64,000 bases of DNA from Modestobacter lapidis (GTDB taxonomy: Bacteria > Actinomycetota > Actinomycetes > Mycobacteriales > Geodermatophilaceae): the NCBI GenBank assembly GCA_019779905.1, contig JABAKE010000007.1, forward strand, positions 124,001 to 188,000, given 5' to 3'. How positions within the stretch are numbered: the first letter of the stretch is position 1; the number at the start of each line of letters is the position of its first letter. This document shows positions 1,967 to 56,083 of the stretch, in pieces. The translations under genes and the position numbers were made by a program. Under the pieces are notes generated by a model. The model was given only the letters and a program-made list of their open reading frames with translations. It made no database searches and was not told the origin of the DNA.

Positions 1967-2455
1967 GTGAGCACCACGCCCGGCCCCGGCCCGGAGAAGG
2001 CCGACGTCGAGAACAGCCACGAGGCCTACGTCCGCCTTGAGCGCGAGGTGGCCCTGCTGCTGCGCCGGTCCCGGATCGTCTCCGGCCGGCTGGGCGGCGA
2101 GCTGCACCGCGACCTCGACGGCGCCTCGTACGGGTTGATGATCCTGCTGGACGACGCCGGCCCGCTGCGGGCCAGTGAACTCGTCGTGCGGCTCGGCCTG
2201 GACAAGAGCACGGTCAGCCGCCAGGTGGCCGCCCTGGTCGACCTGGGCATGGTCGACCGGGTGGCGGACCCCGCGGACGGCCGGGCGCAGGTGCTGACGA
2301 TCTCCGCGGAGGGGCACCGGCGGCTCAGCGAGGTCCGCGAGACCCGCCGGGCCCGCTGGCAGGCCAACCTCGCCGACTGGCCGACCTCCGACGTCGCCAC
2401 GCTCGCCACCCTGCTCAACCGGCTGAACCAGCAGGGCGAGGCCCGCGAGGACTGA
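1967..2455 (+). CDS. MarR-family transcriptional regulator
   Basis: About 162 residues with a winged helix-turn-helix: LRASELVVRLGLDKSTVSRQ is the recognition region and PADGRAQVLTISAEG the wing. The effector is unknown. The start is uncertain. GTG 1967 follows GAAG at good spacing and gives a normal MarR length. GTG 1883 would overlap the hspR stop (GTGA) but adds 28 low-complexity residues. It reads on from hspR and could be transcribed with the heat-shock operon. Its TGA (2453-2455) lies inside the left arm of a perfect inverted repeat shared with the convergent glcF gene. Confidence 0.8.
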   Translation: MSTTPGPGPEKADVENSHEAYVRLEREVALLLRRSRIVSGRLGGELHRDLDGASYGLMILLDDAGPLRASELVVRLGLDKSTVSRQVAALVDLGMVDRVADPADGRAQVLTISAEGHRRLSEVRETRRARWQANLADWPTSDVATLATLLNRLNQQGEARED

Positions 2456-2694
2456 AGAAGGACCCCGCTGCCCCGCTGCAGGGTCCCGCCCTGAGCCTGC
2501 GAAGGGTGGGGGGCAGCGGTCAGGCCCCGCTGCAGGGTCCCGCCCTGAGCCTGCGAAGGGTGGGGGGCAGCGGTCAGGCCCCGCTGCAGGGTCCCGCCCT
2601 GAGCCTGCGAAGGGTGGGGGGCAGCGGTCAGGCCCCGCTGCAGGGTCCCGCCCTGAGCCTGCGAAGGGTGGGGGGCAGCGGGGTCCTTCTTCAG
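2452..2694. repeat. Family-1 hairpin repeat, bidirectional copy with four 54-bp tandem units
   Basis: A perfect 23-base inverted repeat (2452-2474 and 2672-2694, each arm reading CTGAAGAAGGACCCCG then CTGCCCC) encloses four tandem 54-base units starting at 2471, 2525, 2579 and 2633. Each arm contains the stop codon of one convergent gene: TGA 2453-2455 of marR and TGA (minus) 2691-2693 of glcF. Read on the minus strand the units contain the core TCGCAGGCTC. A role as bidirectional terminator is likely from position and stem strength. It is one of eight related copies in this window. Confidence 0.9.
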
Positions 2695-4103
2695 TGCTGT
2701 GGGCCCAGCGTGCTGACCGGGAGTCCGCGGATCGACGCGTCGAGCACCTCGATCGTGTGCGCCAGCCCGATCCGGGTGCCCTGCCGCTCCAGCGACGAGG
2801 ACACCTGCATCAGGCAGCCCGGATTCGCCGTCACGAGCAGCTCGGCCCCGGTGGCGGCGATGTTGCGGGCCTTGCGGTCGCCGAGCTCACGGGCCGGCTC
2901 GGGGTTCAGGATGTTCCAGATCCCGGCGGAGCCGCAGCAGATCTCCGCCTCGGCGATCTCCTTGAGCTGGAGGCCGGGGATCTCCTGGAGCAGCGTCCGG
3001 GGCTGCGCGCGCACGCCCTGGGCGTGGGCGAGGTGACAGGCATCGTGGTAGGCGACGGTCACCTCGAGCGGATGCCGCTCGGCGACCGTGCCCAGCTCCG
3101 CGAGCAGTTCGGAGACGTCGCGGACCGAGCCGGCGAAGGTCTTCGCCCGCTCGGCGTAGGCCGGGTCGTCGGCCAGGATCGCGGCGTACTCCTTCATGCT
3201 CGATCCGCAGCCGGCCGCGTTGACGACCACGGTCTGCACCCCGGCGGCCTCGAAGGCGTCGATGGTGGCCCGGGCGTACTTCTCCGCTTCCTCCTGGCGG
3301 CCGTTGTGCACCGACAGCGCGCCGCAGCAGCCCTGCTTGCGCGGGATCACCACGTCGCAGCCCTCCGCGGCGAGCACCCGGGCGGTGGCGGCATTGACGC
3401 CGGGGAAGAACTCGCCCTGCACGCAGCCGGTGAGCAGCCCGACGACCGCACGCCGGGTGCCGACGGCGGGCATCCGGGTGGGCAGCTTCTCGCGCTTCTC
3501 CAGCGGCGGGGCGAGGCCCTCCATGGCGGCCAGCTTCGGCGCCAGTCGCTCCAGCAGGCCGCTGCCCCGGACCAGCTTGGGCAGCCCGCTGGCCTGATAG
3601 GCGCGCAGCGGCCCGCGCAGCGCCCGCAGCCGCTTCTTGTGCGGGAACAACGCGAAGATCGCCGCCCGCAGCGCCCGGTCGCCGGGGGCGCGGGTGTGGT
3701 GCCGCTCGACCTGCACCCGGGTGGCCTCGATCAGCGCGTCGTACTGGACGCCGGACGGGCAGGCGGTCACGCAGGCCATGCAGCCGAGGCAGGCGTCGAA
3801 GTGCTGCACCATCGTGTCGCTCATCGGGGCGCCCTGCAGCCCGGCCTTCATCAGGTCGATCCGGCCGCGCGGGGAGTCCATCTCCTCGCCCCACAGCGTG
3901 TACGTGGGGCAGGTCGGCAGGCAGAAGCCGCAGTGCACGCAGTCGCTGATCAGCTCCGCCGACGGCGGGTGGTCGTCGTCGAAGGCCGGCCGCAGGGCGG
4001 GCCCGTCGACCGGGACCGGACCGTGCGCCAGCGCGCCGGCCTTCTGCGGGTCGCCCTGGGGCTCCTGCTCGTGCACGCGGGCCTGGGCGGACTGTTCAGT
4101 CAT
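2691..4103 (-). CDS. glcF: Glycolate oxidase iron-sulfur subunit GlcF
   Basis: A 470-residue electron-transfer subunit of the glycolate oxidase complex, passing electrons from the flavin subunits to the quinone pool. Two [4Fe-4S] motifs are visible: CVHCGFCLPTCP near residue 55 and CLGCMACVTACP near residue 102. Two cysteine-rich CCG domains follow (KQGCCGAL with GCVQGE upstream; YHDACHLAHAQG and EICCGSAG). The start ATG at 4101-4103 overlaps the glcE stop. It is the last gene of glcD-glcE-glcF. Its stop codon merges with a family-1 hairpin repeat, which probably ends the transcript. Confidence 0.93.
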   Translation of the reverse strand: MTEQSAQARVHEQEPQGDPQKAGALAHGPVPVDGPALRPAFDDDHPPSAELISDCVHCGFCLPTCPTYTLWGEEMDSPRGRIDLMKAGLQGAPMSDTMVQHFDACLGCMACVTACPSGVQYDALIEATRVQVERHHTRAPGDRALRAAIFALFPHKKRLRALRGPLRAYQASGLPKLVRGSGLLERLAPKLAAMEGLAPPLEKREKLPTRMPAVGTRRAVVGLLTGCVQGEFFPGVNAATARVLAAEGCDVVIPRKQGCCGALSVHNGRQEEAEKYARATIDAFEAAGVQTVVVNAAGCGSSMKEYAAILADDPAYAERAKTFAGSVRDVSELLAELGTVAERHPLEVTVAYHDACHLAHAQGVRAQPRTLLQEIPGLQLKEIAEAEICCGSAGIWNILNPEPARELGDRKARNIAATGAELLVTANPGCLMQVSSSLERQGTRIGLAHTIEVLDASIRGLPVSTLGPQH

Positions 4104-5383
4104 CAGATGCCTCCGACGAACCGGCCGGGCGCCAGACGGCGCTCGGGGTCGAATTGTTCCTTCACGCGTCGCATCAGGTCCAACGCCGGGACCGGCCCCC
4201 AGGTGTCCACGCCCGCCTTGACCTCGGGCGGCCCGTCCAGGACGACGAGCGCGCCGCCGGCCACGGCGCACGCCTCGCGCAGCCGGGTGACGACCTCGCG
4301 GACGGCGGCGACATCGGTGTCGGCCGGCAGCGAGCCGTGCAGCACCCCGGCGCCACCGGACCCGCGCAGGCGCAGCGGCACCGCCGCTGCGGCCGCGGCA
4401 GCGCGGCCGGCCTCGAGCACCCGGGAGAGCCCGGAGAGGGCGAAGGTGGCCTTGAGGGCGGTGGCCCGCCCGGTGGTCGGGTCTTCGTCCCAGGGCAGGC
4501 GGCCCCATCCGGACGGGAGCCCGTCGGCGGCAGCGGCGTCCCCGCCGAGCAGGGCGATGGTGGCCGCGGTGCGCCCCTCGACGCCGGCCTCGGTGCCCTC
4601 GAGCAGCACGCCGACGGTGCCGCCGCCGGTGCCGGGCCAGTCGACCTCGACGGCGGCCGGCACGAGCTGGGCGTGCACGACCTGCTGGACCAGTCGCTGG
4701 GCGTCGTCGGGGGAGTCGGCCGAGACGTTGACCACCCGGCGGGCGACCGGCACCGGGTGCAGCCGGAACACCGCCTGGGTGACGACGGCGAGGGTGCCGT
4801 AGGAGCCGATGACCAGCTTGCCCAGGTCGTACCCGGCGACGTTCTTCACCACCCGGCCACCGGCCTTGGCGACCACGCCGTCGGCGCGCACCACCGTGAC
4901 GCCGATGAGCAGGTCGCGCGCCGTCCCGACGGCCATCCGGCCCGGACCGCTGGTGTTGGTGGCGAGCATGCCGCCGATGGTGGAGCCGGCCACCGGCTCG
5001 TCCAGGGCCAGGCGCTGCCCGGCGCCGGCCACCGTCCGCTGCACCTCGGCGAGCGGGGCACCGGCCTGGGTGTCGACGATCAGGTCGCCGGCGGCGTGGT
5101 CGAGGACGGCGGACATCCGGCTGAGGTCCAGCACCAGGTCGGCCTGCTCGGGCGGGCGGCCCCACGACATCTTGGTGCCGTGCCCCCGGGGCACGACCAC
5201 CAGGCCGTAGACCGCCGCGGCGCGCAGCACCTCGGCGACCTCGGGGGTGCTCGCCGGCCGGGCGACGAGGCCGACGGGCACCCCGTCGACGGCGTCGGCC
5301 GGGGTGCCGTCGGTGACCTCGCCACAGGCGGAGCCGAGCGCGGTGCGGGCGGCGTCCAGGCGGGTGCGGGCAGCAGTGGTCAT
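4103..5383 (-). CDS. glcE: Glycolate oxidase FAD-binding subunit GlcE
   Basis: A 426-residue VAO-type FAD protein. The N-terminal FAD-binding PP-loop region (VVPRGHGTKMSWG, then GSTIGGMLATNTSGP) is followed by a shortened cap domain, and the protein ends GRFVGGI. GlcE is a truncated paralogue of GlcD needed for an active glycolate oxidase. The start at 5381-5383 leaves a 10-base gap after the glcD stop, and the gene overlaps glcF by 4 bases, so the three subunits form one operon. The long GC-rich reading frames on the opposite strand are shadows. Confidence 0.9.
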   Translation of the reverse strand: MTTAARTRLDAARTALGSACGEVTDGTPADAVDGVPVGLVARPASTPEVAEVLRAAAVYGLVVVPRGHGTKMSWGRPPEQADLVLDLSRMSAVLDHAAGDLIVDTQAGAPLAEVQRTVAGAGQRLALDEPVAGSTIGGMLATNTSGPGRMAVGTARDLLIGVTVVRADGVVAKAGGRVVKNVAGYDLGKLVIGSYGTLAVVTQAVFRLHPVPVARRVVNVSADSPDDAQRLVQQVVHAQLVPAAVEVDWPGTGGGTVGVLLEGTEAGVEGRTAATIALLGGDAAAADGLPSGWGRLPWDEDPTTGRATALKATFALSGLSRVLEAGRAAAAAAAVPLRLRGSGGAGVLHGSLPADTDVAAVREVVTRLREACAVAGGALVVLDGPPEVKAGVDTWGPVPALDLMRRVKEQFDPERRLAPGRFVGGI

Positions 5384-5393
5384 CTCGGGCCCC

Positions 5394-6950
5394 TCAGAAC
5401 GCGTCGGCCAGGCCGGCTTCGACCAGCGGGTGGGCGTGCTTGCGCTTGCCCGGCACCTCGCCGCAGAGCCGGGGCGTCGGGAAGATCTTCCCCGGGTTGG
5501 AGATGTTGCCCGGGTCGAACGCGCAGCGGACCAGTTGCATGGTGTCCAGGTCGTCGTCGGTGAACATCTTCGGCATGTAGGCCGCCTTGTCCACGCCCAC
5601 GCCGTGCTCGCCGGTGATCGCGCCGCCATGGCTGATGCACAGGTCCAGGATGGCGCCGCTGACCTTCTCGGCGGCGTCCCCGGCACCGGGTTTCGCGTCG
5701 TCGAAGAGCACCAGCGGGTGGAGGTTGCCGTCACCGGCGTGGAAGACGTTGGCGACCCGCACCCCGGAGGACGACGATAGCTCGGCGATGGCCCGCAGCA
5801 CCTCGGGCAGCGCCGTCCGGGGGATGACGCCGTCCTGGACGATGTAGTCCGGGCTGATCCGGCCCACCGCCGCGAACGCGGACTTGCGGCCCTTCCAGAT
5901 CAGCGCCCGCTCGGCGGCGTCGATGGCCAGTCGCAGCTCGAAGGCGCCGTGGTCCTGGCAGATGCGCTCCACCTGGGCGTACTCGTGCTCGACCTCGGCG
6001 GAGGGGCCGTCGAGCTCGATGACCAGCACGGCGCCGGCACCGGCGGGGTAGTTGCAGTGCACGGCGGCCTCGGCGGCCTCGATGGCCAGCGCGTCCATCA
6101 TCTCGATCGCGGCCGGCAGCACGCCGGCACTGATGATCGCCGAGGTGGCGGCGCCGGCCTCGTCGGTGGAGGCGAAGCCGGCCAGCAGGGTGCGGACCTC
6201 CTCGGGCAGCCGCACCAGCCGGACGGTGGCGGTGGTGGCGATGCCGAGCGTCCCCTCCGAGCCGACGACGGTGCCGAGCAGGTCGTAGCCGGGGGCGTCG
6301 GGGGCCAGGCCGCCGAGGGTGACGATGTCGCCCTGTGGGGTGACCAGCTCGGTGCCGAGCACGTGGTTGCTGGTGAAGCCGTACTTCAGGCAGTGCGCGC
6401 CGCCGGAGTTCTCGGCCAGGTTGCCGCCGATGGAGCAGATCTGCTGGCTGCTGGGGTCGGGGGCGTAGTAGTAGCCCTCCGGGGTGGCGGCGCGGGTGAC
6501 GTCGAGGTTGATCACACCGGGGTCGACCACGGCCCGCTGGTCGGCACGCCGGATCTCGCGGATGGTGCGCATCCGGGACGTCACGATCAGCACGCCGTCG
6601 GCCCGGGGGAGGGAGCCACCGGACAGGCCGGTGCCCGAGCCGCGGGCCACGAACGGAACGCCGTGCTCGCTGCATGCCCGCACCACGGCGGCGAGCTGCT
6701 CGGTGGTCTCGGGGAGCACGACCAGGGCCGGGGTGACGCGGTAGTGGGCCAGGCCGTCGCACTCGTAGGTGCGCAGCTGGGTGGGGTCGGCGATGACGCC
6801 GGTGACGGGCATGACCTCGCGGGCCACCCGGCCGACCGCCGCCATGCCCGCGCTGTTGGCGCCGGGTTCGCCGGTGGCCGAGGTGGCTTCCGGTGGAACG
6901 TGCCCCTCGACCGGGCCCGCCGTCGTCTCCGTGCCGTGCATACCGCTCAT
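5394..6950 (-). CDS. glcD: Glycolate oxidase catalytic subunit GlcD
   Basis: A 518-residue FAD-linked oxidase that converts glycolate to glyoxylate. The FAD domain contains VPFVARGSGTGLSGG and SIGGNLAENSGGAHCLKYG. The C-terminal FAD-oxidase domain carries NVFHAGDGNLHP and GEHGVGVDKAAYMP, the usual substrate-side motifs, and ends near NPGKIFP. It is the first gene of glcDEF. A GC-rich hairpin at 7016-7047 separates it from the upstream aceB transcript, leaving about 65 bases for its own promoter. Product glyoxylate can feed AceB and SgaA, both encoded nearby. D-lactate dehydrogenase activity cannot be excluded from sequence alone, but GlcE and GlcF beside it favour glycolate. Confidence 0.93.
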   Translation of the reverse strand: MSGMHGTETTAGPVEGHVPPEATSATGEPGANSAGMAAVGRVAREVMPVTGVIADPTQLRTYECDGLAHYRVTPALVVLPETTEQLAAVVRACSEHGVPFVARGSGTGLSGGSLPRADGVLIVTSRMRTIREIRRADQRAVVDPGVINLDVTRAATPEGYYYAPDPSSQQICSIGGNLAENSGGAHCLKYGFTSNHVLGTELVTPQGDIVTLGGLAPDAPGYDLLGTVVGSEGTLGIATTATVRLVRLPEEVRTLLAGFASTDEAGAATSAIISAGVLPAAIEMMDALAIEAAEAAVHCNYPAGAGAVLVIELDGPSAEVEHEYAQVERICQDHGAFELRLAIDAAERALIWKGRKSAFAAVGRISPDYIVQDGVIPRTALPEVLRAIAELSSSSGVRVANVFHAGDGNLHPLVLFDDAKPGAGDAAEKVSGAILDLCISHGGAITGEHGVGVDKAAYMPKMFTDDDLDTMQLVRCAFDPGNISNPGKIFPTPRLCGEVPGKRKHAHPLVEAGLADAF

Positions 6951-27833: not shown

Positions 27834-28433
27834 ATGCAGAAGGACCCCCTCCCTCCCCACTCCTCGTCCCTCGCGGCGGGCCCCCGGGACGGGGCCGCGC
27901 ACCCCGACCGCGACCGGCTCCGCGAGCTCGTCCTCTCCCTCGCCGTGGTGCACGGGAAGGTCACGCTGTCCTCGGGCCGGGAGGCCGACTGGTACGTCGA
28001 CCTGCGCCGGCTGACGCTGCACCACGAGGGCGCCCCACTGGTCGGCCGGGTGATGCGGCAGCTCACCGGCGACCTGTCCTACGACGTCGTCGGCGGGCTC
28101 ACGCTGGGTGCCGACCCGGTGGCCACCGCGATGCTGCACGCCGCGGCGGAGGGAGCCGGGTTCCTGGATGCCTGCGTGGTGCGCAAGCAGGGCAAGGCCC
28201 ACGGGCTGCAGCGCCGGATCGAGGGGCCCGACGTCGCCGGGCGCAGGGTGCTGGTCGTCGAGGACGTCTCCACGACCGGCGGCAGCCCGCTGACCGCGGC
28301 GGAGGCGCTGCAGGAGGCCGGTGCGGAGATCGCCGCCGTCGCGGTGATCGTCGACCGGGGTGGCCGGGCGGCGGTCGAGGCGGCCGGCTTCGAGTACCGG
28401 GCGGCGTTCGACCTGGCCGACCTCGGACTCTAG
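27834..28433 (+). CDS. pyrE: Orotate phosphoribosyltransferase with a repeat-derived N-terminus
   Basis: 199 residues. It adds PRPP to orotate to make OMP in pyrimidine synthesis. The PRPP loop VLVVEDVSTTGGS, the motif VHGKVTLSSGREADWYVDLR and GGLTLGADPVATAM are all present. Homologues start close to DRDRLRELV; here about 22 residues precede it. That leader is encoded by a family-1 repeat copy (27839-27900). No other start codon lies between it and the conserved core, and a leaderless -10 fits ATG 27834, so the leader seems to be translated. The TAG stop is the first triplet of another family-1 copy. Confidence 0.93.
   Translation: MQKDPLPPHSSSLAAGPRDGAAHPDRDRLRELVLSLAVVHGKVTLSSGREADWYVDLRRLTLHHEGAPLVGRVMRQLTGDLSYDVVGGLTLGADPVATAMLHAAAEGAGFLDACVVRKQGKAHGLQRRIEGPDVAGRRVLVVEDVSTTGGSPLTAAEALQEAGAEIAAVAVIVDRGGRAAVEAAGFEYRAAFDLADLGL
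27839..27900 (+). repeat. Family-1 hairpin repeat inside the pyrE coding start
   Basis: GAAGGACC at 27839, basal arm CCCCCTCCC (27845-27853), core TCGTCCCTCGCGGCGGGCCC, and the facing arm GGGACGGGG (27886-27894). One central mismatch is present. It aligns along its length with the copy that follows pyrE at 28433. It is the only copy located at a gene start. Confidence 0.8.
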
Positions 28434-28572
28434 AAGGACCCCGTTGCCCCCCACCGCTCGCAGGCTCGCGGCGGGCCCCTGCAACGGGGCCGCACCCCCA
28501 CCGCTCGCAGGCTCGCGGCGGGACCCTGCAACGGGGCCGCACCCCGCCCCTGCAACGGGGCCGCAGCCCACC
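28433..28572 (+). repeat. Family-1 hairpin repeat after pyrE, two 47-bp units
   Basis: TAGAAGGACCCC overlaps the pyrE stop. The basal arm CCCCGTTGC (28439-28447) faces GCAACGGGG (28481-28489), a compensated change relative to CCCCGCTGC/GCAGCGGGG in other copies. The core TCGCAGGCTC occurs twice, in units starting at 28451 and 28498 (47-base period), and a third partial arm follows. Confidence 0.85.
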
Positions 28573-30065: not shown

Positions 30066-31421
30066 GTGAGCGCCCGCCGGCATCTCGTGGTGGTCGGTGG
30101 CGACGCCGCGGGAATGTCCGCCGCCACCCAGGCCCGCCGGCTGCGCACGGCGGCCGAGCTGCAGATCACCGTGCTCGAGCAGGGCCACGACGTCTCCTTC
30201 TCGGCGTGCGGGATCCCCTACTGGGTGGGCGGGCAGGTGGCCGGGCGGAACGAGCTGATCGCCCGCACCCCGGCCGAGTTCGCCGCCCAGGACATCAGCG
30301 TGCACACCGGCACCCGGGCGGCCGGTATCGACCTGGCCGCGGGTGCCGTGGTCACCGAGCACGGCACCCGGTTCGGCTACGACACCCTGGTGATCGGCAC
30401 CGGTGGCCGGCCCACCCGCCCGCCGATCCCCGGGCTGGACGCCCCCGGCGTCTTCGGGGTGCACCGGCTCGAGGACGGCGCGGCCATCCGGACGGCGATC
30501 GACGCCGGTGCGCGCACCGGCCTCGTCCTCGGCGGCGGCTACATCGGGCTGGAGATGGCCGAGGCGCTGCTGGCCCGCGGGCTGGCGGTCACCGTCGTCC
30601 TCGCCGACCCGCTGCCCATGCAGCTGCTCGACGCCGACATGGGGGAGCGGGTCTGCGCCGGGCTGCGGGCGATGGGCATCGTCGTGCACACCGACTCGGC
30701 GGTGCGCGAGGTACTGCTCGACGGCGACGGCCGGGCGTGCGGGGTGCGCACCGACGGGGCGAGCTACGAAGCCGACCTCGTCGTCCTCGGGCTGGGCATG
30801 GGCCCGGAGGTCACGCTGGCCGCCGATGCCGGGCTGGCGCTCGGCGTCACCGGCGCGATCGACGTCGACCGCAGCCAGCGCTGCCGCGACCATCCCGAGG
30901 TCTTCGCCGCCGGCGACTGCGCGCAGACCTTCCACCGGGTGAGCGGCGAGGTCGCGCACGTGCCGCTGGGCACGCACGCGAACAAGCAGGGACGGGTGGC
31001 CGGGTCGGTCATCGGCGGGCGCCCGGCCCGCTTCGCCGGAGTGCTCGGGACGGCGGTCACCAAGGTCGGCGACCTGGAGGTCGGCCGCACCGGCCTGTGC
31101 ACCACCCAGGCGGAGGAGGCGGGGTTCGCCTACCGGACCGACGTCATCGAGGCGACCACGCGGGCCGGCTACTTCCCCGGCGCCGAGGACGTCGCGGTGA
31201 AGCTGGTCAGCGAGCGTGGTTCCGGGCACCTGCTGGGCGCCCAGGTGGTCGGCGGGCCCGGCTCGGCCAAGCGCATCGACGTGCTGGCCACCGCCATCTG
31301 GGCCGGGATGACCGCCGAGGACCTGGCCGGCTCCGACCTGTCCTACGCCCCGCCGTTCTCCCCGGTCTACGACCCGGTCGCGGTCGCCGCCCGAGCGGTC
31401 AGCCGCACCGAGCAGGGCTGA
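30066..31421 (+). CDS. CoA-disulfide reductase / NADH-oxidase-like flavoprotein
   Basis: 451 residues of pyridine-nucleotide disulfide oxidoreductase fold. The FAD motif is VVGGDAAGMSAATQARR. SFSACGIPYWVGG carries the single redox-active Cys typical of CoA-disulfide reductases, and GLVLGGGYIGLEMAEAL is the NAD(P)H site. The C-terminal dimerisation domain is full length. Likely role: thiol redox balance or oxygen reduction. The GTG start at 30066 directly precedes the FAD motif. The stop is followed at once by a family-1 repeat. Confidence 0.88.
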   Translation: MSARRHLVVVGGDAAGMSAATQARRLRTAAELQITVLEQGHDVSFSACGIPYWVGGQVAGRNELIARTPAEFAAQDISVHTGTRAAGIDLAAGAVVTEHGTRFGYDTLVIGTGGRPTRPPIPGLDAPGVFGVHRLEDGAAIRTAIDAGARTGLVLGGGYIGLEMAEALLARGLAVTVVLADPLPMQLLDADMGERVCAGLRAMGIVVHTDSAVREVLLDGDGRACGVRTDGASYEADLVVLGLGMGPEVTLAADAGLALGVTGAIDVDRSQRCRDHPEVFAAGDCAQTFHRVSGEVAHVPLGTHANKQGRVAGSVIGGRPARFAGVLGTAVTKVGDLEVGRTGLCTTQAEEAGFAYRTDVIEATTRAGYFPGAEDVAVKLVSERGSGHLLGAQVVGGPGSAKRIDVLATAIWAGMTAEDLAGSDLSYAPPFSPVYDPVAVAARAVSRTEQG

Positions 31422-31484
31422 CGAAGGACCCCGCTGCCCCCCACGCCACGCTCCGCGCGGCGCGGGCCCCTGCAGCGGGGCCGA
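31422..31484 (+). repeat. Family-1 hairpin repeat after the flavoprotein gene
   Basis: CGAAGGACCCC follows the TGA directly. The basal arm CCCCGCTGC (31429-31437) faces GCAGCGGGG (31472-31480). It probably ends the transcript just upstream of the aldolase promoter (GATACT near 31495). Confidence 0.8.
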
Positions 31485-35776: not shown

Positions 35777-35829
35777 GGCCCCGCTGCAGGTCCCTCCGCG
35801 AGCGTGCGAGGGGGCAGCGGGGTCCTTCC
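35777..35829 (-). repeat. Family-1 hairpin repeat after the 35830 gene (minus orientation)
   Basis: On the minus strand the stop TGA of the gene at 35830 runs into GGAAGGACCCCG. The arms CCCCGCTGC (35779-35787) and GCAGCGGGG (35814-35822) pair perfectly. The core reads TCGCACGCTCGCGG on the minus strand. Confidence 0.8.
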
Positions 35830-37810
<1,981 letters not shown>

Positions 37811-39337: not shown

Positions 39338-39807
39338 CCGGCGCGCCGGCTGACCGTGCTGGACGCCGACGGTGAGCGGTGGGCCCGCCGGTCCGGTGCC
39401 CTGCACGACGACTCCGGCTCCGGGGAGCCGGCGGTGGCGACTGGGTCGCCGTGCAGGGGGAGCGGGTGGTCGCGGTGCTGCCCCGGCGGACGGCCTTCGT
39501 CCGCACCGCCGCCGGGCGGGGGTCGGTGGCCCAGGTGGTGGCCGCGCTGCTCGTGGACACCCCGGGGATGCGGGAGCTGGCGCTGCCGGGTGGCGCCGGC
39601 CTGGACGCCGCCGCGATCGGCGACGGCGTCCTCGACCCGGCCCGGCTGACCGCCTGGCGCAAGCTGCAGGCCGAGGCGTACCGGCAGGAGCTGCGGGCCG
39701 ACGCCCGGGCGCGGGCGCTCGAGCACGCCCGCCTGCGTGCCCGGCCCCGCTCGGGGCACCGCCGCGAGCTTGCGAGTGGTGGGGAGCACGGGGTCCTTCG
39801 ACGGTAG
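39338..39807 (+). pseudogene. Decayed rsgA-type ribosome small-subunit GTPase
   Basis: The first part reads in one frame (RLTVLDADGERWARRSG ... GEPAV). Near 39440 a one-base shift moves the sequence to a second frame (GDWVAVQGERVVAVLPRRTA). Both match the N-terminal OB-fold of RsgA GTPases. After GSVAQVVAA the sequence jumps to LLVDTPGMREL, so almost the whole GTPase domain (G1-G4 motifs) is missing. The C-terminal zinc-domain Cys/His residues are absent and only LTAWRKLQAEAYR remains. The 3' end runs into a family-1 repeat. A frameshift plus a large internal deletion indicate a pseudogene. Bases 39210-39337 show nothing else. Confidence 0.75.
39743..39799 (-). repeat. Family-1 hairpin repeat between the rsgA remnant and purD
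   Basis: On the minus strand it reads CGAAGGACCCCGTGCTCCCC, core TCGCAAGCTCGCGG, then CGAGCGGGGCC. The basal stem CCCCG/CGGGG has a two-base bulge. It lies directly upstream of the purD -10 box and forms the 3' part of the rsgA remnant. Confidence 0.75.
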
Positions 39808-41090: not shown

Positions 41091-41148
41091 GGCCGCCTCC
41101 AGGGGCCCGCCGCGAGCCTGCGAGTGGTGGGGAGGAGGTGGTCCTTCT
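41091..41148 (-). repeat. Family-1 hairpin repeat between purD and the AI-2E gene
   Basis: On the minus strand the TAA of the AI-2E gene runs into AGAAGGACCACC. The arms are CCGCCTCC (41093-41100) and GGAGGTGG (41134-41141), with one G-T wobble on the plus strand. The core reads TCGCAGGCTCGCGG on the minus strand. Confidence 0.8.
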
Positions 41149-42438
41149 TTACTCGACGACGACGGGCGCCGCGGCCCGGCCGGTCTCCGGCTCGGGCGGC
41201 CGCGGGCCCTCGTGCCGCCGCGCCAGGTAGGTGCCGGCGACGTTGAGGCAGGCGACGAGCGGCACGGCGATCAGGGCCCCGAAGATGCCGGCGACCAGCA
41301 GACCGGCGGCGATGGACAGCACCACGGCCAGCGGGTGCACCCGGACGGCGCGGCCGAGCAGCAGCGGCTGCAGCACGTGCCCCTCCAGCTGCATGACGCC
41401 GACGGTGACCGCCAGGACGACCAGGGCGGCGATCGGCCCGTTGGACACCAGTGCCACGAGGACCGCCGCCGTCCCGGCGAGGAACGAGCCGATGATCGGG
41501 ATGAACGCCCCGAGGAACACCAGCGCGGCCAGCGGGATGGCCAGCGGCACGCCGATGACCGACAGGGCGATGCCGATCACCACGGCGTCGACCAGGGCGA
41601 CCAGTGCGGTCGCCCGGACGTAGGCGACCAGCGTCCGCCAGGCCCGCCGCGCAGCCTCGTCCAGGTGGGCACGGGAGGCCCGCGGGGCGAGGCCGACGAA
41701 CCACAGCCAGATGGGCCGGCCGTCCTTGAGGAAGAAGAACAGCGTGAACAGCGCGAGCACGATCCCGGTGACGACCTCCCCCACGGTGGCCGCGGTGGTG
41801 AGGGCGCCGGCGGTGAGGGTGTCGCGGTTGTCGAGGACGGACTGCTGGGCGGTCTCCAGGGCGGCGTCGATCTGGGCCTGGGAGACCGGGAAGTTCGCGG
41901 TGACGAAGTCCTGGACCTGCTCGATGCCCTGCCCCACCTGGTCGGCGAGGTCTGCGTAACCGGCGGTGAACCGCTCGACGACGAGGGTGATGATCCCGGC
42001 GACGGCGCCCACCCCGACAACGAGCATGGTGGTCGCGGCCACCGCGCGCGGCCAGCCCTGGCGCACCATCAGCGCCGCGCCGGGCTGCAGCAGCGCGGCC
42101 AGCAGCAGCGCGACGATCACCGGGACGACGACGACCGCGACGTAGCCGACCAGGATCAGCAGCGCGTAGAGGGCGGCGCCCACGACGAGCGCCCGCCACG
42201 ACCAGGCGGCGGCCACCCGCAGTCCGGGGGGCACCGGGTCCTCGCCCACCTGGGAGTCGTCGGGGGCCGGCAGGCTGCCGTCGCCGTCGTGGCTGCCGTC
42301 GTCGGGCTCCAGATGGCCGTGCCGGTCGTCGTCCATGACCAGCACCACCCGGGTGTCCGGCCAGGCGTGCGGGTCCCGTTCGGCGGCCCGGATGCGCTCG
42401 CGGGCCCGGGCGATCAGGTGGGACGCCCGAGCGGGCAT
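41149..42438 (-). CDS. AI-2E family (PerM-type) membrane transporter
   Basis: 429 residues. An acidic cytoplasmic N-terminus of about 80 residues (DDDRHGHLEPDDGSHDGDGS region) precedes roughly 7-8 membrane helices (VVVVPVIVALLLAALLQPG, FTLFFFLKDGRPIW, PLAALVFLGAFIPIIGSFLA, EGHVLQPLLLGRAVRVHPL). The last two are family hallmarks. Members export AI-2 or act as Na+/H+ antiporters in other species; the role here is unknown. ATG 42436-42438 has GGAGG upstream. Its TAA leads into a family-1 repeat. Confidence 0.88.
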   Translation of the reverse strand: MPARASHLIARARERIRAAERDPHAWPDTRVVLVMDDDRHGHLEPDDGSHDGDGSLPAPDDSQVGEDPVPPGLRVAAAWSWRALVVGAALYALLILVGYVAVVVVPVIVALLLAALLQPGAALMVRQGWPRAVAATTMLVVGVGAVAGIITLVVERFTAGYADLADQVGQGIEQVQDFVTANFPVSQAQIDAALETAQQSVLDNRDTLTAGALTTAATVGEVVTGIVLALFTLFFFLKDGRPIWLWFVGLAPRASRAHLDEAARRAWRTLVAYVRATALVALVDAVVIGIALSVIGVPLAIPLAALVFLGAFIPIIGSFLAGTAAVLVALVSNGPIAALVVLAVTVGVMQLEGHVLQPLLLGRAVRVHPLAVVLSIAAGLLVAGIFGALIAVPLVACLNVAGTYLARRHEGPRPPEPETGRAAAPVVVE

Positions 42439-49809: not shown

Positions 49810-51221
49810 CGGGTGGCGCTCCGTTCGGTGCTCGAGGCGGCGGTGGGGACGTCGGTGCCCTTGGGTTCGAACCACTTGCTGTCGACCTGCTTGATCATCA
49901 GGTTGGCGACGAAGCCGACGGCGAGCAGGCCGACCATGATGAACAGCGCCGGCCGGTAGTCGCCGGCGACGAGCTCACCCGGGGTGCCCCGGGAGTCCAG
50001 GACACCGTTGATGATCAGCGGCCCGGCGATGCCCGCCGCGGACCATGCGGTCAGCAGCCGGCCGTGGATCGCGCCGACCTGGAAGGTGCCGAACAGGTCG
50101 CGCAGGTAGGCCGGCGCGGTGGAGAACCCGCCGCCGTAGAAGCTGATGATCAGTGCGGCCAGGATGACGAACAGCCAGGTGGCCGAGCTGCCGACGGTGG
50201 CCAGCAGCACATAGAGCACCAGGCCGACGCCCAGGTAGATCATGTACATCGGCTTGCGGCCGATGTAGTCCGACGTGGTCGACCAGGCGAAACGCCCGCC
50301 CATGTTGAACAGCGAGAGCACGCCGACGAAGCCGGCTGCCGCGGCCGCGGTGACCGCGGAGGTCGAACCGTCACGGAAGAAGTCCTGGATCATCGGGGCG
50401 GCCTGCTCGAGGATCCCGATGCCGGCGGTCACGTTGCAGAACAGGGCGACCCAGAGCAGCCAGAACTGCGGGGTCCTGATCGCGTTGCCGGCCGAGACGT
50501 TCTCGGTGGTGACCAGCGACTTCTGCTTGACCGTCGCCGGGTCGAAGCCGTGCGGGCGCCAGTCGGGAGCCGGCACCCGGACGATGAGGGCGCCGAAGAG
50601 CATGAAGGCCAGGTAGACCAGGCCGAGGGTCACGAACAGCAGGGCGACGGCGCTGCCGGCGGGGACGGTGCCGGCCGTGCCGTCGTAGCCCTCGTCGTAG
50701 AAGTTCATCAGCTGGCGGGAGATCGGGGAGGCGATCAGCGCGCCACCGCCGAAGCCCATGATCGCCATGCCGGTGGCCAGGCCGGGGCGGTCGGGGAACC
50801 ACTTGATCAGCGTGGAGACCGGGGAGATGTAGCCGATGCCCAGCCCGATGCCACCGAGGACGCCGTAGCCGAGGTACACCAGCCACAGCTGGTTGGTGCT
50901 GATGCCCAGCGCCCCGACGAGGAAGCCGGCCGACCACAGGACGGCGGCGGTGAACATCGCGGCGCGCGGGCCGTTGCGGTCGACCCAGGTGCCGAACGCG
51001 GCGGCCGACAGGCCGAGCATCACGATGGCGAGGGAGAAGATGATGCCGATCGCGGTGAGGCTGCTGTCGAAGTGCTGGACCAGAGCGGTCTTGTAGACGC
51101 TGGTGGCGTAGGCCTGGCCGATGCACAGGTGCACGGCCAGGGCTGCCGGCGGGATGAGCCACCGGTTGAAGCCCGGTCGAGCGACGATGCGCTCGCGAGC
51201 CAGGAAGCTGGGTACTGCCAC
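49806..51221 (-). CDS. OFA-family MFS transporter (oxalate/formate antiporter type)
   Basis: 471 residues with 12 predicted membrane helices. GTWVDRNGPRAAMFTA is motif A, GIGLGIGYISPVSTLIKWFPDRPGLATG (split here as GIGLGIGYISPV and KWFPDRPGLATG) is typical of the OFA family, and a central loop contains DWRPHGFDP. GTG 51219-51221 has GGAGG upstream. It may exchange or export formate, oxalate or a similar acid. It is divergent from a formaldehyde dehydrogenase whose pathway makes formate, so formate export is a reasonable guess. Confidence 0.87.
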   Translation of the reverse strand: MAVPSFLARERIVARPGFNRWLIPPAALAVHLCIGQAYATSVYKTALVQHFDSSLTAIGIIFSLAIVMLGLSAAAFGTWVDRNGPRAAMFTAAVLWSAGFLVGALGISTNQLWLVYLGYGVLGGIGLGIGYISPVSTLIKWFPDRPGLATGMAIMGFGGGALIASPISRQLMNFYDEGYDGTAGTVPAGSAVALLFVTLGLVYLAFMLFGALIVRVPAPDWRPHGFDPATVKQKSLVTTENVSAGNAIRTPQFWLLWVALFCNVTAGIGILEQAAPMIQDFFRDGSTSAVTAAAAAGFVGVLSLFNMGGRFAWSTTSDYIGRKPMYMIYLGVGLVLYVLLATVGSSATWLFVILAALIISFYGGGFSTAPAYLRDLFGTFQVGAIHGRLLTAWSAAGIAGPLIINGVLDSRGTPGELVAGDYRPALFIMVGLLAVGFVANLMIKQVDSKWFEPKGTDVPTAASSTERSATR

Positions 51222-51446
51222 GGAATGACCTCCGGGAACGGGAACGACGGCGCCGAGCGGACACAGCCAGGGCATGCCTGTCTCACAGGGCACGAACGGG
51301 TGGGACGGTACGTCCACCTGGGGCGGATGGTGCCCCTGGGGCCGCATTCCGGGGGAGGACGAGATCGGATCGTTGTCTGCGCGGCGCATCTCGGGGTGGG
51401 CTTCCGTGCCGTGCAAGGCCCCCGGACCACGGCGCCGACGGCTCCC

Positions 51447-51452
51447 TAAGCT
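51447..51452 (+). promoter_or_regulatory. Leaderless -10 box of the mycothiol-dependent dehydrogenase
   Basis: TAAGCT lies 6 bases before ATG 51459. No ribosome site is visible, which fits a leaderless transcript. Confidence 0.6.
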
Positions 51453-51458
51453 CACGGC

Positions 51459-52550
51459 ATGCCATACGAGGTGAAGGGCGTCGTCGCCCGCAGCAAGGGT
51501 TCCCCGGTCTCCGTCGAGACGATCATCGTTCCGGACCCCGGTCCGGGCGAGGCGGTCGTGGACGTGCAGGCCTGCGGGGTCTGCCACACCGACCTGCACT
51601 ACCGGGAGGGCGGGATCAACGACGAGTACCCCTTCCTCCTCGGCCACGAGGCCGCCGGGCTCGTCTCGGCCGTGGGCGAGGGCGTCACCAACGTCGCCGT
51701 GGGCGACTACGTGATCCTGAACTGGCGGGCCGTCTGCGGCGAGTGCCGCGCGTGCGCCAAGGGCAAGCCCTGGTACTGCTTCAACACCCACAACGCCACC
51801 CAGAAGATGACCCTGGCCGACGGCACGGAACTCTCCCCGGCGCTGGGCATCGGCGCCTTCGCCGAGAAGACCCTGGTCCACTCCGGCCAGTGCACCAAGG
51901 TCGACCCGGCCGCCAAGCCCACCGCGGCCGGGCTCCTCGGCTGCGGCGTGATGGCCGGTGTCGGCGCCGCCATCAACACCGGTGGGGTGGGACGCGGCGA
52001 CTCGGTCGCCGTCTTCGGCTGCGGTGGTGTCGGTGACGCCGCGATCGCCGGCTCCCGGCTGGCCGGCGCGGGCACGATCATCGCCGTCGACATCGACGAC
52101 AAGAAGCTCGAGTGGGCCAGGGGCATGGGCGCCACCCACACGGTCAACTCCAAGGAGACCGACCCGGTCCGGGCGATCAAGGACCTCACCGGCGGGTTCG
52201 GCGTGGACGTGGCGATCGACGCCGTGGGCCACCCGGCCGTCTACGAGCAGGCCTTCAAGGCCCGTGACCTGGCCGGCACCGTCGTCCTCGTCGGGGTTCC
52301 CAACCCGGCCATGAAGATCGAGCTGCCGCTGATCGACGTCTTCGGGCACGGCGGGGCGCTGAAGTCCTCCTGGTACGGCGACTGCCTGCCCAGCCGCGAC
52401 TTCCCGATGCTCATCGACCTGTACCTGCAGGGCCGCTTCGACCTCGACGCCTTCGTCTCCGAGACCATCGGCATCGACGACGTCGAGTCGGCCTTCGAGA
52501 AGATGCACCACGGCGACGTGCTGCGCTCGGTCGTGGTGTTCGACAAGTGA
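51459..52550 (+). CDS. mscR: S-(hydroxymethyl)mycothiol dehydrogenase
   Basis: A 363-residue zinc alcohol dehydrogenase that oxidises the formaldehyde-mycothiol adduct (and reduces S-nitrosomycothiol) with NAD. Catalytic zinc residues are in [15 protein letters not shown] and LGHEAAG. The structural zinc lobe is [15 protein letters not shown], and the NAD motif is [10 protein letters not shown]. Length and motifs match the mycobacterial enzyme. It is coupled to an MBL-fold gene by a 4-base overlap, as in mycobacteria. It implies that the host makes mycothiol. Confidence 0.93.
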
Positions 52551-53170
52551 CGGGCGTGCGCATCGACAAAGCGGTCATCAGCGGGGTCTTCAGCCTCGAC
52601 GGGCAGGACTTCGACGTCGACAACAACGTCTGGCTGGTCGGCGACGACGACGAGGTCCTGGTTGTCGACGCCCCGCACCGGGCGGAGCCGATCATCGAGG
52701 CGATCGGTGGCCGGAAGGTCGCCGGGATCGTGCTGACCCACGGGCACAACGACCACATCACCGCCGCGGTCGCCCTGCGCGAGGCCGTGGACGCGCCGAT
52801 CTGGTTCCACCCGGCCGACCGGATGCTGTGGGACATGGTCTACGGCGAGGTCCACCCGTCCGCGGTTCCGGACGCCGAGATCGCCGACGGCACCCGGTTC
52901 GCGGTGGCCGGCACGACGCTGCAGGCGCTGCACACCCCCGGCCACTCGCCGGGCAGCACCTGCCTACACGCCCCCGACCTGAACACCGTGTTCACCGGCG
53001 ACACCCTGTTCTGCGGGGGCCCGGGCGCCACCGGCCGCTCGTTCAGCGACAAGCCGACCATCCTCAGCTCCATCCGGGGCCGGCTGCTGTCGTTGCACGG
53101 CGACACGGTGGTGCGTACCGGGCACGGCGACGACACCACCATCGCCGCCGAGGTGGGCAACATTGCTTGA
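52547..53170 (+). CDS. MBL-fold hydrolase, partner of mscR
   Basis: 207 residues of the metallo-beta-lactamase fold. [13 protein letters not shown] is the metal motif, HTPGHSPGS and [17 protein letters not shown] are further metal ligands, and RTGHGDDTT is the last His region. By context it may hydrolyse S-formylmycothiol to formate and mycothiol, completing formaldehyde detoxification; that step is inferred. GTG 52547 overlaps the mscR stop. The TGA is followed by a family-2 repeat. Confidence 0.88.
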
Positions 53171-53287
53171 CCGTCACCCTCGCGGGCGACACCGCGGCCC
53201 GGTGCCACGACAGCCGAGCTGAGCCGCTGCCAGCAGTGACGGCGGGATCCTCCGGGCCCGCGCCGTCCCGGCTGAGGTCGCAAGCGG
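53171..53287 (+). repeat. Family-2 repeat after the mscR operon
   Basis: Directly after the TGA: stem GTCACCC (53173-53179) with GGGCGAC (53184-53190), then ACCGCGGCC and TGAGCCG (53220-53226). Compared with the SCP copy (CCGC/GCGG) the stem has changed to CCC/GGG on both arms. Confidence 0.75.
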
Positions 53288-53327
53288 CCGTCCCGCCCGG
53301 GTGAGCGGAACCACCCGGGCGGGACGG
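53288..53327 (+). terminator. Strong hairpin upstream of purF
   Basis: A perfect 16-base stem (CCGTCCCGCCCGGGTG at 53288-53303 with its complement at 53312-53327) and an 8-base loop. It probably ends the mscR operon and isolates the purF promoter, 21 bases further on. Confidence 0.8.
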
Positions 53328-53347
53328 TCGGCAACCCCCATCCCCGG

Positions 53348-53353
53348 TACGCT
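53348..53353 (+). promoter_or_regulatory. Leaderless -10 box of purF
   Basis: TACGCT lies 6 bases before GTG 53360. Confidence 0.55.
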
Positions 53354-53359
53354 CGATGG

Positions 53360-54925
53360 GTGCCTCGCGGTGATGGACGGCTGACGCACGACCTCGACCC
53401 CTCTGAACCCGGCCCCCAGGACGCCTGCGGCGTCTTCGGCGTCTGGGCGCCGGGTGAAGAGGTCGCCAAGCTCAGCTACTTCGGCCTGTACGCCCTCCAG
53501 CACCGCGGGCAGGAGGCGGCCGGCATCGCGGTGTCCGACGGCTCGTCCGTCGTGGTCTTCAAGGATCTCGGCCTGGTCAGCCAGGTGTTCGACGAACCGA
53601 CCCTGGGCAGCCTGCGCGGCCACATCGCCGTCGGGCACACCCGGTACTCGACCACCGGCGCCTCCACCTGGGAGAACGCCCAGCCCACGTTCCGCACCAC
53701 GGACGCCGGCACCAGCCTGGCGCTGTGCCACAACGGCAACCTGGTGAACACCGCGGAGCTGGCCAGGGCCGCCGCCGACGAGGGCATCGCCGGGGCGTTC
53801 ACCTCGACCACCGACTCCGACCTGATCACCTCCCTGATCGGCGCCCGCCAGGACCTCTCGGTCGAGGGCGCCGCGATGGAGGTGCTGCCCATGCTCCGCG
53901 GCGCCTTCAGCCTCACGTTCATGGACGAGAACACCCTCTACGCCGCCCGCGACCCGCAGGGCGTGCGCCCGCTGGTGCTCGGCCGGCTGGAGCGGGGCTG
54001 GGTCATCGCCTCCGAGACGGCGGCCCTGGACATCTGCGGCGCGTCGTTCGTCCGCGAGGTCGAGCCCGGCGAGCTGATCGCCATCGACGAGAACGGGCTG
54101 CGCTCGCAGCACTTCGCCCCGGCGGCACCCAAGGGCTGCGTCTTCGAGTACGTGTACCTGGCCCGCCCGGACACCACCATCTCCGGCCGCGGCGTGCACG
54201 CCGCCCGGGTCGAGATCGGCCGCCGGCTGGCCAGGGAGCACCCGGCCGACGCCGACCTGGTCATCCCGGTGCCCGAGTCCGGAACACCGGCCGCCGTGGG
54301 CTACGCGGAGGCCTCGGGCATCCCCTACGGGCTGGGCCTGGTCAAGAACTCCTACGTGGGCCGCACCTTCATCCAACCCTCGCAGACCATCCGCCAGCTG
54401 GGCATCCGGCTGAAGCTGAACCCGCTGCGCGACGTCATCCGCGGCAAGCGGCTCGTCGTCGTCGACGACTCGATCGTCCGCGGCAACACCCAGCGCGCGC
54501 TGATCCGGATGCTGCGGGAGGCGGGCGCGGTCGAGGTGCACGTGCGGATCTCCTCGCCGCCGGTGAAATGGCCGTGCTTCTACGGCATCGACTTCGCCAG
54601 CCGCGCCGAGCTGGTCGCCAACGGCCTGGACGTCGACGGGATCCGCGCCTCGATCAACGCCGACTCGCTGGGCTACGTCTCCGAGCAGGCCCTGATCGCG
54701 GCCACCGAGCAGCCGGCCAACCGGCTGTGCACCGCCTGCTTCACCGGCGAGTACCCCATTCCGCTGGGCGAGCCGGAGCTGCTGGGCAAGCACGTGCTGG
54801 ACGGGATCGGCCGGCGGGCGATGTCCGACGCCGACGCCGCCCGGTCGGTGAGCGGGTGGACCGGTCAGCAGGCCGGCAGCCCGGCCCGGGCCGGCGGCGC
54901 CGACGACGCCCTCACCCGGCCGTGA
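53360..54925 (+). CDS. purF: Amidophosphoribosyltransferase
   Basis: 521 residues. It makes phosphoribosylamine from PRPP and glutamine, the first committed purine step. The nucleophile Cys is in DACGVFGVW (about residue 23), after a propeptide-like leader. Further features are LQHRGQEAAGIAV, GHTRYSTTG and the PRPP loop VVVDDSIVRGNTQ. CTACFTGEYP suggests the Fe-S-containing type. The GTG start fits a leaderless promoter. It overlaps purM by 4 bases. Confidence 0.97.
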   Translation: MPRGDGRLTHDLDPSEPGPQDACGVFGVWAPGEEVAKLSYFGLYALQHRGQEAAGIAVSDGSSVVVFKDLGLVSQVFDEPTLGSLRGHIAVGHTRYSTTGASTWENAQPTFRTTDAGTSLALCHNGNLVNTAELARAAADEGIAGAFTSTTDSDLITSLIGARQDLSVEGAAMEVLPMLRGAFSLTFMDENTLYAARDPQGVRPLVLGRLERGWVIASETAALDICGASFVREVEPGELIAIDENGLRSQHFAPAAPKGCVFEYVYLARPDTTISGRGVHAARVEIGRRLAREHPADADLVIPVPESGTPAAVGYAEASGIPYGLGLVKNSYVGRTFIQPSQTIRQLGIRLKLNPLRDVIRGKRLVVVDDSIVRGNTQRALIRMLREAGAVEVHVRISSPPVKWPCFYGIDFASRAELVANGLDVDGIRASINADSLGYVSEQALIAATEQPANRLCTACFTGEYPIPLGEPELLGKHVLDGIGRRAMSDADAARSVSGWTGQQAGSPARAGGADDALTRP

Positions 54926-56025
54926 CCGGCTCGTCGTCCGGCGGTGACCAGCACCCCGCAGGCCGGGGGGAGCTGACCTACGCCGCCTCCGGGGTCGACA
55001 TCGACGCCGGCGAGCGGGCGGTCACGCTGATGCGCTCGGCGGTGGAGCGGACCAACCGGCCCGAGGTGGTCGGCGGGCTCGGCGGCTTCGCCGGGCTGTT
55101 CGCGCTGGACACCGTCAAGTACCGCCGCCCGTTGCTGGCGTCGTCGACCGACGGCGTCGGCACCAAGATCGCGCTGGCCCGGATGCTCGACCGGCACGAC
55201 ACCGTGGGCATCGACCTGGTCGCCATGGTCGTCGACGACCTCGTCGCCTGCGGCGCGGAGCCGCTGTTCCTGCAGGACTACGTCGCCTGCGGCCGGGTGG
55301 TGCCCGAGCGGATCGCCGCCATCGTCACCGGCATCGCCGCCGGGTGCAGCGAGGCGGGCGCGGCGCTGGTGGGCGGCGAGACCGCCGAGCACGGCGACCT
55401 GATGGACGCAGACGAGTACGACCTGGCCGCCACGGCGGTCGGGGTCGTCGAAGCCGACGCCGTGCTGGGGCCGGAGCGGGTGCAGCCGGGCGACGCGGTG
55501 ATCGCGATGGCGTCCTCCGGGCTGCACTCCAACGGCTACTCGCTGGTCCGCCGGGTCGTGGCGCGGGCCGGCCTGGACCTCACCGCCACCCCGGCCGGGC
55601 TGCACCGGTCGCTGGGGGAGGAGCTCCTCGAGCCGACCCGGATCTACGCGCTGTCCTGCCTGGCCCTCGTCGCCGAGCTCGGGGTGGAGCAGGTGCACGC
55701 CTTCGCGCACATCACCGGCGGCGGGCTCGCCGGCAACACCGCCCGCGTCGTTCCGGAGGGGCTGACCGCGGTGCTCGACCGCAGTACGTGGGAGCTGCCC
55801 CCGGTGGTCGGGCTGCTGGAGCAGCACGGGGTGCCCCGGGTGGAGTCCGAGCGGGCGTTCAACTGCGGCGTGGGCATGGTGGCCGCCGTCTCACCCGCGG
55901 TCGCCGGCCGCGCCGTGGCGCTGCTCAGCGCCCGCGGCATCCCGGCGTGGGTGGCCGGCACGGTCGACCGCACGCCCGACGGCGGGCAGACCGGCGCGCA
56001 CCTGGTGGGCTCCTACCGCCGTTGA
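54922..56025 (+). CDS. purM: AIR synthetase
   Basis: 367 residues. It closes the imidazole ring, FGAM to AIR, with ATP. The motifs YAASGVDIDAGERAV, STDGVGTKIALA, VGGETAEH, ASSGLHSNGYSLVRR and HITGGGLAGN are standard. GTG 54922 overlaps the purF stop. The TGA is followed immediately by a family-1 repeat. Confidence 0.97.
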   Translation: MTGSSSGGDQHPAGRGELTYAASGVDIDAGERAVTLMRSAVERTNRPEVVGGLGGFAGLFALDTVKYRRPLLASSTDGVGTKIALARMLDRHDTVGIDLVAMVVDDLVACGAEPLFLQDYVACGRVVPERIAAIVTGIAAGCSEAGAALVGGETAEHGDLMDADEYDLAATAVGVVEADAVLGPERVQPGDAVIAMASSGLHSNGYSLVRRVVARAGLDLTATPAGLHRSLGEELLEPTRIYALSCLALVAELGVEQVHAFAHITGGGLAGNTARVVPEGLTAVLDRSTWELPPVVGLLEQHGVPRVESERAFNCGVGMVAAVSPAVAGRAVALLSARGIPAWVAGTVDRTPDGGQTGAHLVGSYRR

Positions 56026-56083
56026 AAAAGGACCTCGTCCTCCTCATGCCTCGCAAGCTCGGCACGAGCCTCGGGACGAGGCC
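56026..56083 (+). repeat. Family-1 hairpin repeat after purM
   Basis: AAAAAGGACC follows the TGA. The basal arm CCTCGTCC (56033-56040) faces GGACGAGG (56074-56081), another fully compensated variant of the family-1 stem. The core is TCGCAAGCTCGG. Confidence 0.82.

Follow-up and report, generated by a model that had tools for sequence, protein, structure and literature searches.

A 64-kb stretch of the Modestobacter lapidis genome (contig JABAKE010000007.1, positions 124,001 to 188,000; hereafter the window) carries copies of a repeat unit of about 59 nt, which consists of a GAAGGA lead, a two-part hairpin and a GGCC end and which is placed, at base level, on the stop codons of genes. We consider this element to be probably a non-autonomous mobile palindrome akin to the repetitive extragenic palindromes (REPs), with gene ends, and in most cases the stop codon itself, as the target of its integration. 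A sequence-only reading of the window had named eight places as members of one hairpin family; a covariance model found the element at all eight, and the family is thus real. To a specialist, the surprising aspect is the stop-directed placement.

Placement of the element on stop codons

Placement was analysed for 124 copies scoring at least 50 bits in 1.60 Mb of the M. lapidis genome, with genes called by a purpose-written script whose starts are rough and which may miss open reading frames (ORFs). A sense-upstream stop codon was located between -3 and +2 from the first base of the lead in 93 of these 124 strong copies, and the spacing was exactly +1 in 65 of the 124 (62 TGA and 3 TAA). Among the 105 copies with a sense-upstream gene and outside called ORFs, 92 were at the stop, whereas random placements in the identical gaps averaged 16.4 and never exceeded 27 in 2000 trials. 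Thus, the distance to stops is non-random genome-wide, and the six stop contacts that had been listed for the window from its sequence (2457/2689, 28433, 31423, 35828, 41147 and 56027) were all confirmed. In other genomes of the family Geodermatophilaceae, 25 of the 28 best-scoring copies were at a stop, using genes called with the M. lapidis codon table. Within the 1.60 Mb, a sample partly chosen for known copies, 106 of 1412 called genes bear the element at their stop, and occupancy per stop was similar at convergent (40/334) and codirectional (64/599) gene ends.

The register between stop codon and lead was counted for copies of at least 30 bits lying within -3 to +8 of a stop. With TGA, 71 of 84 copies were at +1 and eight at -2; with TAG, five of nine were at +2 and four at -1; the 14 copies at TAA were scattered, with six at -3. 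The outer registers of TGA and TAG place the G of the stop at position -3. This dependence of the register on the type of stop indicates a junction defined at the sequence level. The +1 copies have C immediately before the stop in 54 of 65 cases compared with 614 of 1063 element-free TGA genes, and a purine follows it in 56 of 65 compared with 443 of 1063. The junction at stops approximates to C-W-G-N-N-GAAGGACC (W, A or T), with the stop codon forming part of it; the 8-mer GAAGGACC by itself was not enriched (197 and 172 occurrences per strand, against 211 and 270 in a reversed control). The head of the element is able to remake a stop codon (T+GA or TA+G). That it supplies its own TGA as a general rule was rejected, since copies at TAG and TAA are without CTGA there and TGA was present at -4 in only 3 of 31 non-stop copies.

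The 5' junction motif, (C)WG-NN-GAAGG, is also kept in copies away from stops. In the 31 off-stop copies, W was found at -4 in 22 (nominal p 3e-7), G at -3 in 23 (nominal p 4e-5) and the two together in 19, and WG was present in 10 of the 17 that have no stop triplet near the lead (nominal p 8e-7); since copies of the element are related, these nominal p-values overstate independence, and two of the ten are the inner copies of two similar composites. In these composites (C90:297975-298079 and C10:84909-85013, G000), an outer element encloses an inverted full one, with an identical offset at both loci, and the two composites are alike at 107 of 145 positions, flanks included.

Architecture and detection of the element

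The covariance model, R1, was built from five window copies and used to search the window with filters off. Full copies scored 50.8-86.8 bits, and the best match outside the element family in the 64 kb reached 18.6 bits. No match to Rfam 15 was obtained at gathering thresholds in the window. The consensus is approximately GAAGGA-CCCCGCTGC-CC-CCCACCNC-TCGCANGCTC-GNGGCGGG-NCCCT-GCAGCGGGG-CC, in which an unpaired tag, GAA(G), is followed by a GG/CC base and an extrahelical (bulged) A. The stems comprise a basal part of 8-9 bp, an internal loop and an upper stem of seven pairs around a conserved A.C mismatch, and the loop, of 10 nt, is conserved and TCGCANGCTC-like. The four letters of the tag GAAG are found at 82, 95, 97 and 100%, respectively, in 76 copies, and the proposal that the lead and the non-paired core are kept was borne out across the copies. 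As a short imperfect palindrome with an unpaired end tag, extragenic and in high copy, the element has the features of a REP in the broad sense.

The GGCC end is extended as GTTCCAGCACGTCACC or similar in some copies, other genera included, and GTTCC or GCTCC follows it in 13 of 28 copies of other genomes and in 13 of 124 in the M. lapidis genome. In another species of the genus (L187:1559-1680), the GTTCCAGCACGTCACC extension and a partial hairpin occur in tandem with a 46-bp period.

Pairing of the two strands

Pairing and covariation were assessed in an alignment of 65 distinct 59-nt copies with the conserved mismatch written as a pair; 66 of the 68 59-nt copies of at least 50 bits were entered, and L100:295-353 and L081:10122-10180 were left out of the alignments. 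On the sense strand, 92.1% of cells were paired and covariation was 0.310 against 0.089 after shuffling, a value reached in 0 of 500 shuffles, which bears out the earlier observation that both arms of the stem change together. On the complementary strand, the corresponding values were 98.5% and 0.384 against 0.128 (0 of 500). The difference between strands was mostly in the upper helix, with 85.4% paired on the sense strand compared with 98.8% on the complementary strand. Outside the conserved A.C position, the 101 distinct copies of 59 or 57 nt showed 53 A.C cells on the sense strand and 9 G.U cells, an imbalance with a nominal p of 1e-8 among copies that are not independent.

In an mRNA hairpin of the abutting gene, G.U would be expected as the tolerated intermediate in the sense strand; A.C was found instead, and such a hairpin is therefore disfavoured. 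Two readings remain: selection may keep the complementary strand foldable, or the irregularities may label the tag-bearing strand for an enzyme that distinguishes the strands, in the way described for conserved mismatches of Escherichia coli REPs (PMC8266576). Either of them points to DNA and away from the mRNA of the gene itself. Four or more T among the 8 nt that follow the stem were present in only 2 of 124 copies, and the T fraction in these 8 nt was 0.156 compared with 0.132 in intergenic DNA. An intrinsic terminator as the primary function is disfavoured by the lack of a U-tract and by the similar occupancy of convergent and codirectional stops. The sequence-only reading had held that a folded RNA is selected at gene 3' ends, and with this the wobble polarity, the missing T-run, the differences between congeners, the equal occupancy and the stop-type register all disagree; a secondary role of the element at mRNA 3' ends may still exist. 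Stem covariation beside a gene is thus not in itself evidence of RNA function in its transcript, since here the wobble polarity pointed to the opposite strand.

Copy number and taxonomic distribution

In the window and three large contigs (1.23 Mb), R1 gave 105 matches at E <= 0.01, of which 90 counted as full copies and 76 scored at least 50 bits; the 15 set aside were 14 truncated units and one 45-nt match (L096:3423-3467). The regions added to reach 1.60 Mb gave 61 matches, with four truncated units set aside. Copy density was taken from the three large contigs without the window, which were chosen by size once copies were known on them and hold 68 strong copies in 1.17 Mb, corresponding to about 280 per 4.78-Mb genome, with 280 to 300 as a rough range; the added regions, having been chosen for known copies, were excluded from this estimate.

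All 19 genomes searched in the genus, M. lapidis included, match a 15-letter pattern of lead and stem. The M. lapidis purA is 95% identical to that of two Modestobacter records. Across Geodermatophilaceae, matches to the element were found in 28 of 38 genomes and 9 of 12 genera, while there were none in 37 other genomes of the order and none in 117 other genomes of the class (stricter filters, best 46 candidates scored per genome). The search of related actinobacterial genomes with the model, a step proposed with the original description, thus returned matches, and among the genomes searched the element is confined to Geodermatophilaceae. Genome-wide counts are lower bounds, with the best 46 to 150 or so candidates scored per genome. 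Genome G035 gave a single weak match (E 3.9e-4), compared with at least 149 and at least 151 in its congeners G028 and G042 (150 candidates scored), and for this reason the element seems dispensable. G035 and its two congeners offer a natural near-null comparison within one genus.

Turnover between relatives

Occupancy was compared over 80 kb syntenic with five congeners (G018, G003, G001, G008 and G013). After dnaE1 (C90:338470), the element is present in M. lapidis and a shortened remnant is found in G018, while the same stop is empty in the other four. Site 320512 is occupied in M. lapidis, G003, G008 and G018 and empty in G001 and G013, and site 324183 is occupied in M. lapidis, carries a fragment in G018 and is empty in four. 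At the latter site, a second G+C-rich hairpin with no clear T-run lies downstream in all six genomes, with or without the element. Presence and absence at orthologous gene ends were thus observed, as is expected of a mobile element. Around purA, the ends of most orthologous proteins differ by 0-3 codons whether a copy is present or not, and truncation of genes by insertion was rejected on this ground; the gene at 28433 is one codon shorter in M. lapidis than in most relatives. In a further Modestobacter record (L107), copies were found at the orthologues of the 28433 gene, after TGA, and of the 31423 gene.

Copies within the window

The copies found in the window are listed in Table 1. Two of the places named in the sequence-only reading proved to be composite: the element is present at 2452-2694, as one full copy, three truncated units and one plus-strand lead rather than a single copy, and at 28433-28572, as one full copy plus truncated tandem units. 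At 2452-2694, both convergent genes terminate in TGA + N + GAAGG. The GGCC end of the copy at 41091-41147 is 1 nt from the purD stop, and each of the two off-stop copies (27839 and 39743-39799) is overlapped by the called start of the next ORF.

Table 1. Copies of the element in the 64-kb window, with R1 scores and position relative to stop codons
Feature	Position	Strand	Score (bits)	Relation to genes and remarks
Lead and 5' arm, fused to array	2457-2485	+	21.8	+1 from TGA 2453-2455 of left gene
Three truncated units, 54-bp period	2473-2519, 2527-2573, 2581-2627	-	56.0 each	Model positions 9-55
Full copy	2631-2689	-	86.6	+1 from stop of minus-strand gene 2691-4103
Full copy, off-stop	27839-27896	+	66.9	95 nt past upstream stop
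Full copy	28433-28491	+	86.8	First G is the G of TAG stop 28431-28433
Truncated tandem units	28495-28572	+	34.1 (28495-28527)	3' of 28433 copy; remainder by reading the sequence
Full copy	31423-31482	+		+1 from TGA 31419-31421 of CoA-disulfide-reductase-like gene
Copy with shortened upper stem, 52 nt	35777-35828	-	61.4	+1 from stop of minus-strand gene 35830-36459
Full copy, off-stop	39743-39799	-	50.8	At purD 5' end
Full copy	41091-41147	-	59.4	Between convergent genes; +1 from TAA of minus-strand gene 41149-42438
Full copy, lead AAAGG	56027-56083	+	54.5	+1 from TGA 56023-56025 of purM

Tandem arrays of truncated units with a 54-bp period were found at window positions 2473-2689 and at G000:C184:298702-298918, C118:18910-19121 and C90:391868-392077. 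Four units are listed in each of these four arrays, and with further arrays possible their number is at least four. At L074:16944-18071, which encodes a homologue of the baeRF family (bacterial archaeo-eukaryotic-type release factor), a copy lies 128 nt upstream of the called start.

Interpretation

In the proposed mechanism, the spreading form of the element would be single-stranded DNA folded into a hairpin, which a trans-acting enzyme would recognise by the tag, bulge, mismatch and loop, as in REP/TnpA-REP, and the hairpin would be joined to a (C)WG target. Stops would be over-represented through the WG within TGA and TAG and through the purging of coding-sequence insertions, together with an extra preference for true stops for which this mechanism does not account. 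Any effect of the element on mRNA 3' ends would be secondary.

Several observations weigh against such a mobile palindrome. The Y1 transposase domain, PF01797, was found in 0 of 38 family genomes, M. lapidis included (5 of 14 control genomes were positive), and mobilisation by a REP-associated tyrosine transposase (RAYT) was rejected on this ground. The reverse transcriptase domain RVT_1, present in 10 of 20 genomes tested, was absent from M. lapidis and from the high-copy genomes G022, G045, G043 and G036, and a reverse transcriptase as mobiliser was rejected accordingly. No transposase was found among ten proteins between or beside close copies (nine with non-transposase Pfam matches and one with no match), so that no autonomous copy was present among the proteins scanned; the earlier statement that no transposase is near stands as far as it was checked, among ten scanned window proteins and ten near other copies. 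When the conserved mismatch is left out, the gap between strands shrinks to 96.1% paired on the sense strand compared with 98.7% on the complementary strand, and the A.C mismatch may serve to label the sense strand for an enzyme instead of reflecting folding of the opposite strand. At site 343469, the stop itself is shifted between species. The gap next to purD that holds the 41147 copy is also occupied in the other-genus genomes G038, G028 and G042, which fits recurrent insertion and also long retention, and protein ends there are unequal, with purD of G020 42 codons longer and the 41149 gene of G032 133 codons longer. There was no base-resolved empty site among the congeners, as the intergenic DNA even of G003 is too diverged; for the same reason the right boundary and any target duplication are undefined and gain and loss are mostly inseparable. 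A stop triplet in the matching register was present in 14 of 31 off-stop copies compared with 16% expected, and some of these copies may mark the ends of ORFs that have decayed or escaped the gene caller. Where convergent genes leave a gap of at least 20 nt, the element occupied 40 of 334 stops compared with 3 off-stop copies at 1802 CWG sites (the 40 taken from all scored copies and the 3 from the set of at least 50 bits), an occupancy about 70 times higher at stops. The motif alone therefore fails to explain the preference for stops, and the excess could equally be read as selection for a function next to them.

A more specific version, in which the integration machinery of a mobile hairpin is directed to functional stop codons as such, with some enzyme acting on the folded single strand, is put forward tentatively, because the element occurs at TGA, TAG and TAA alike in stop-specific registers, and at stops about 70-fold over other CWG sites in convergent gaps. 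If true, this would amount to a rule by which a mobile element is targeted to safe harbours on a genome scale. If the share of genes occupied in the 1.60 Mb is typical of the family, many gene ends are reshaped by the element.

The same excess at stops is what would be seen if the element were a functional RNA hairpin that forms or protects the 3' end of its own mRNA behind the terminating ribosome, having been selected at stops and spread by recombination. The sense-oriented stop position far above chance, the strong covariation with a sense strand that folds stably and the occupied purD gap in several genera would all suit this explanation. We nevertheless regard it as doubtful, since the wobble polarity is reversed for an mRNA strand, there is no U-tract, the register varies with the type of stop, congeners differ in presence with G035 nearly without the element, and the second hairpin at 324183 is there in all six genomes regardless of the element.

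The better pairing of the complementary strand could instead mean that an RNA of that strand folds, either an antisense transcript or the 3' untranslated region of a convergent gene, and in 10 of the 57 copies that face an opposing gene the distance from the GGCC end to the stop of that gene is exactly 1 nt. This is improbable, as more than half of the strong copies (66 of 124) are sense-oriented between two genes that run in the same direction, so that neither neighbour has an mRNA with the sequence of the complementary strand, and convergent occupancy was not clearly higher. Some convergent copies adjoin stops at both ends and the non-stem core is conserved, as might be seen in a symmetric double-stranded DNA site, perhaps one bound by a nucleoid protein, that never folds as a single strand; such a site predicts neither the compensatory stem swaps that keep pairing as the sequence changes nor the A.C/G.U polarity that separates the strands, and this explanation is highly improbable. 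A mobile palindrome directed to gene ends is thus the reading we favour. With base-level placement on stops, a near-zero genome in G035 and many natural variants, both the mobiliser and any effect on mRNA 3' ends are directly testable.

Comparison with known systems

No earlier description of the element in Geodermatophilaceae was found in a literature search limited to open-licence papers and to titles and the beginnings of abstracts, and its novelty is not proven. Among the papers listed for REPs, likewise, none was seen to deal with this family. Integron attC sites are folded single-strand recombination sites with bulged bases, typically located at the 3' end of a cassette gene. The element resembles them, as they are generally described, in being a folded site with a bulged base at gene 3' ends; in contrast to attC, its copies follow unrelated host genes and the core sites known from attC are not evident. 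The mycobacterial interspersed repetitive units (MIRUs) are small actinobacterial repeats located at stop codons and also form tandem arrays of about 50 bp; they are not known to have hairpin symmetry and contain small ORFs coupling neighbouring genes. Going by this general description, the element differs in its hairpin and in a GGCC end whose median distance to the next codirectional start is 93 nt (34 copies).

Passages of PMC3733652 describe GTAG- and CGTC-tagged REPs as short, high-copy tagged palindromes of 20-40 bp, located chiefly in gaps between convergent or codirectional genes and near 3' ends. The element is likewise short, tagged, in high copy and near 3' ends; in contrast to the REPs of those passages, it is about 59 nt long with a two-part stem, its tag is GAAG, it was found here only in Geodermatophilaceae, and its register is at base level and dependent on stop type. 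Geodermatophilus, Blastococcus, Modestobacter and Actinobacteria are absent from the main text of that paper, and the passages found in PMC9686282 concern CRISPR (clustered regularly interspaced short palindromic repeats). For REP/TnpA-REP (RAYT), parts of PMC8266576 describe a 5' tetranucleotide tag and strand-specific recognition of a folded single strand, with conserved stem mismatches that make a bulge in Escherichia coli REPs and a CT cleavage dinucleotide near the hairpin. The tag, the mismatch and bulge and the C before the stop in 54 of 65 +1 copies of the element are similar to these features (PMC8266576), whereas its sequence and size are different and the 38 family genomes are without the Y1 domain. 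The nearest known kind is the REP elements, and although the Y1 test places it outside the class mobilised by RAYTs, the element looks, and may work, like a REP.

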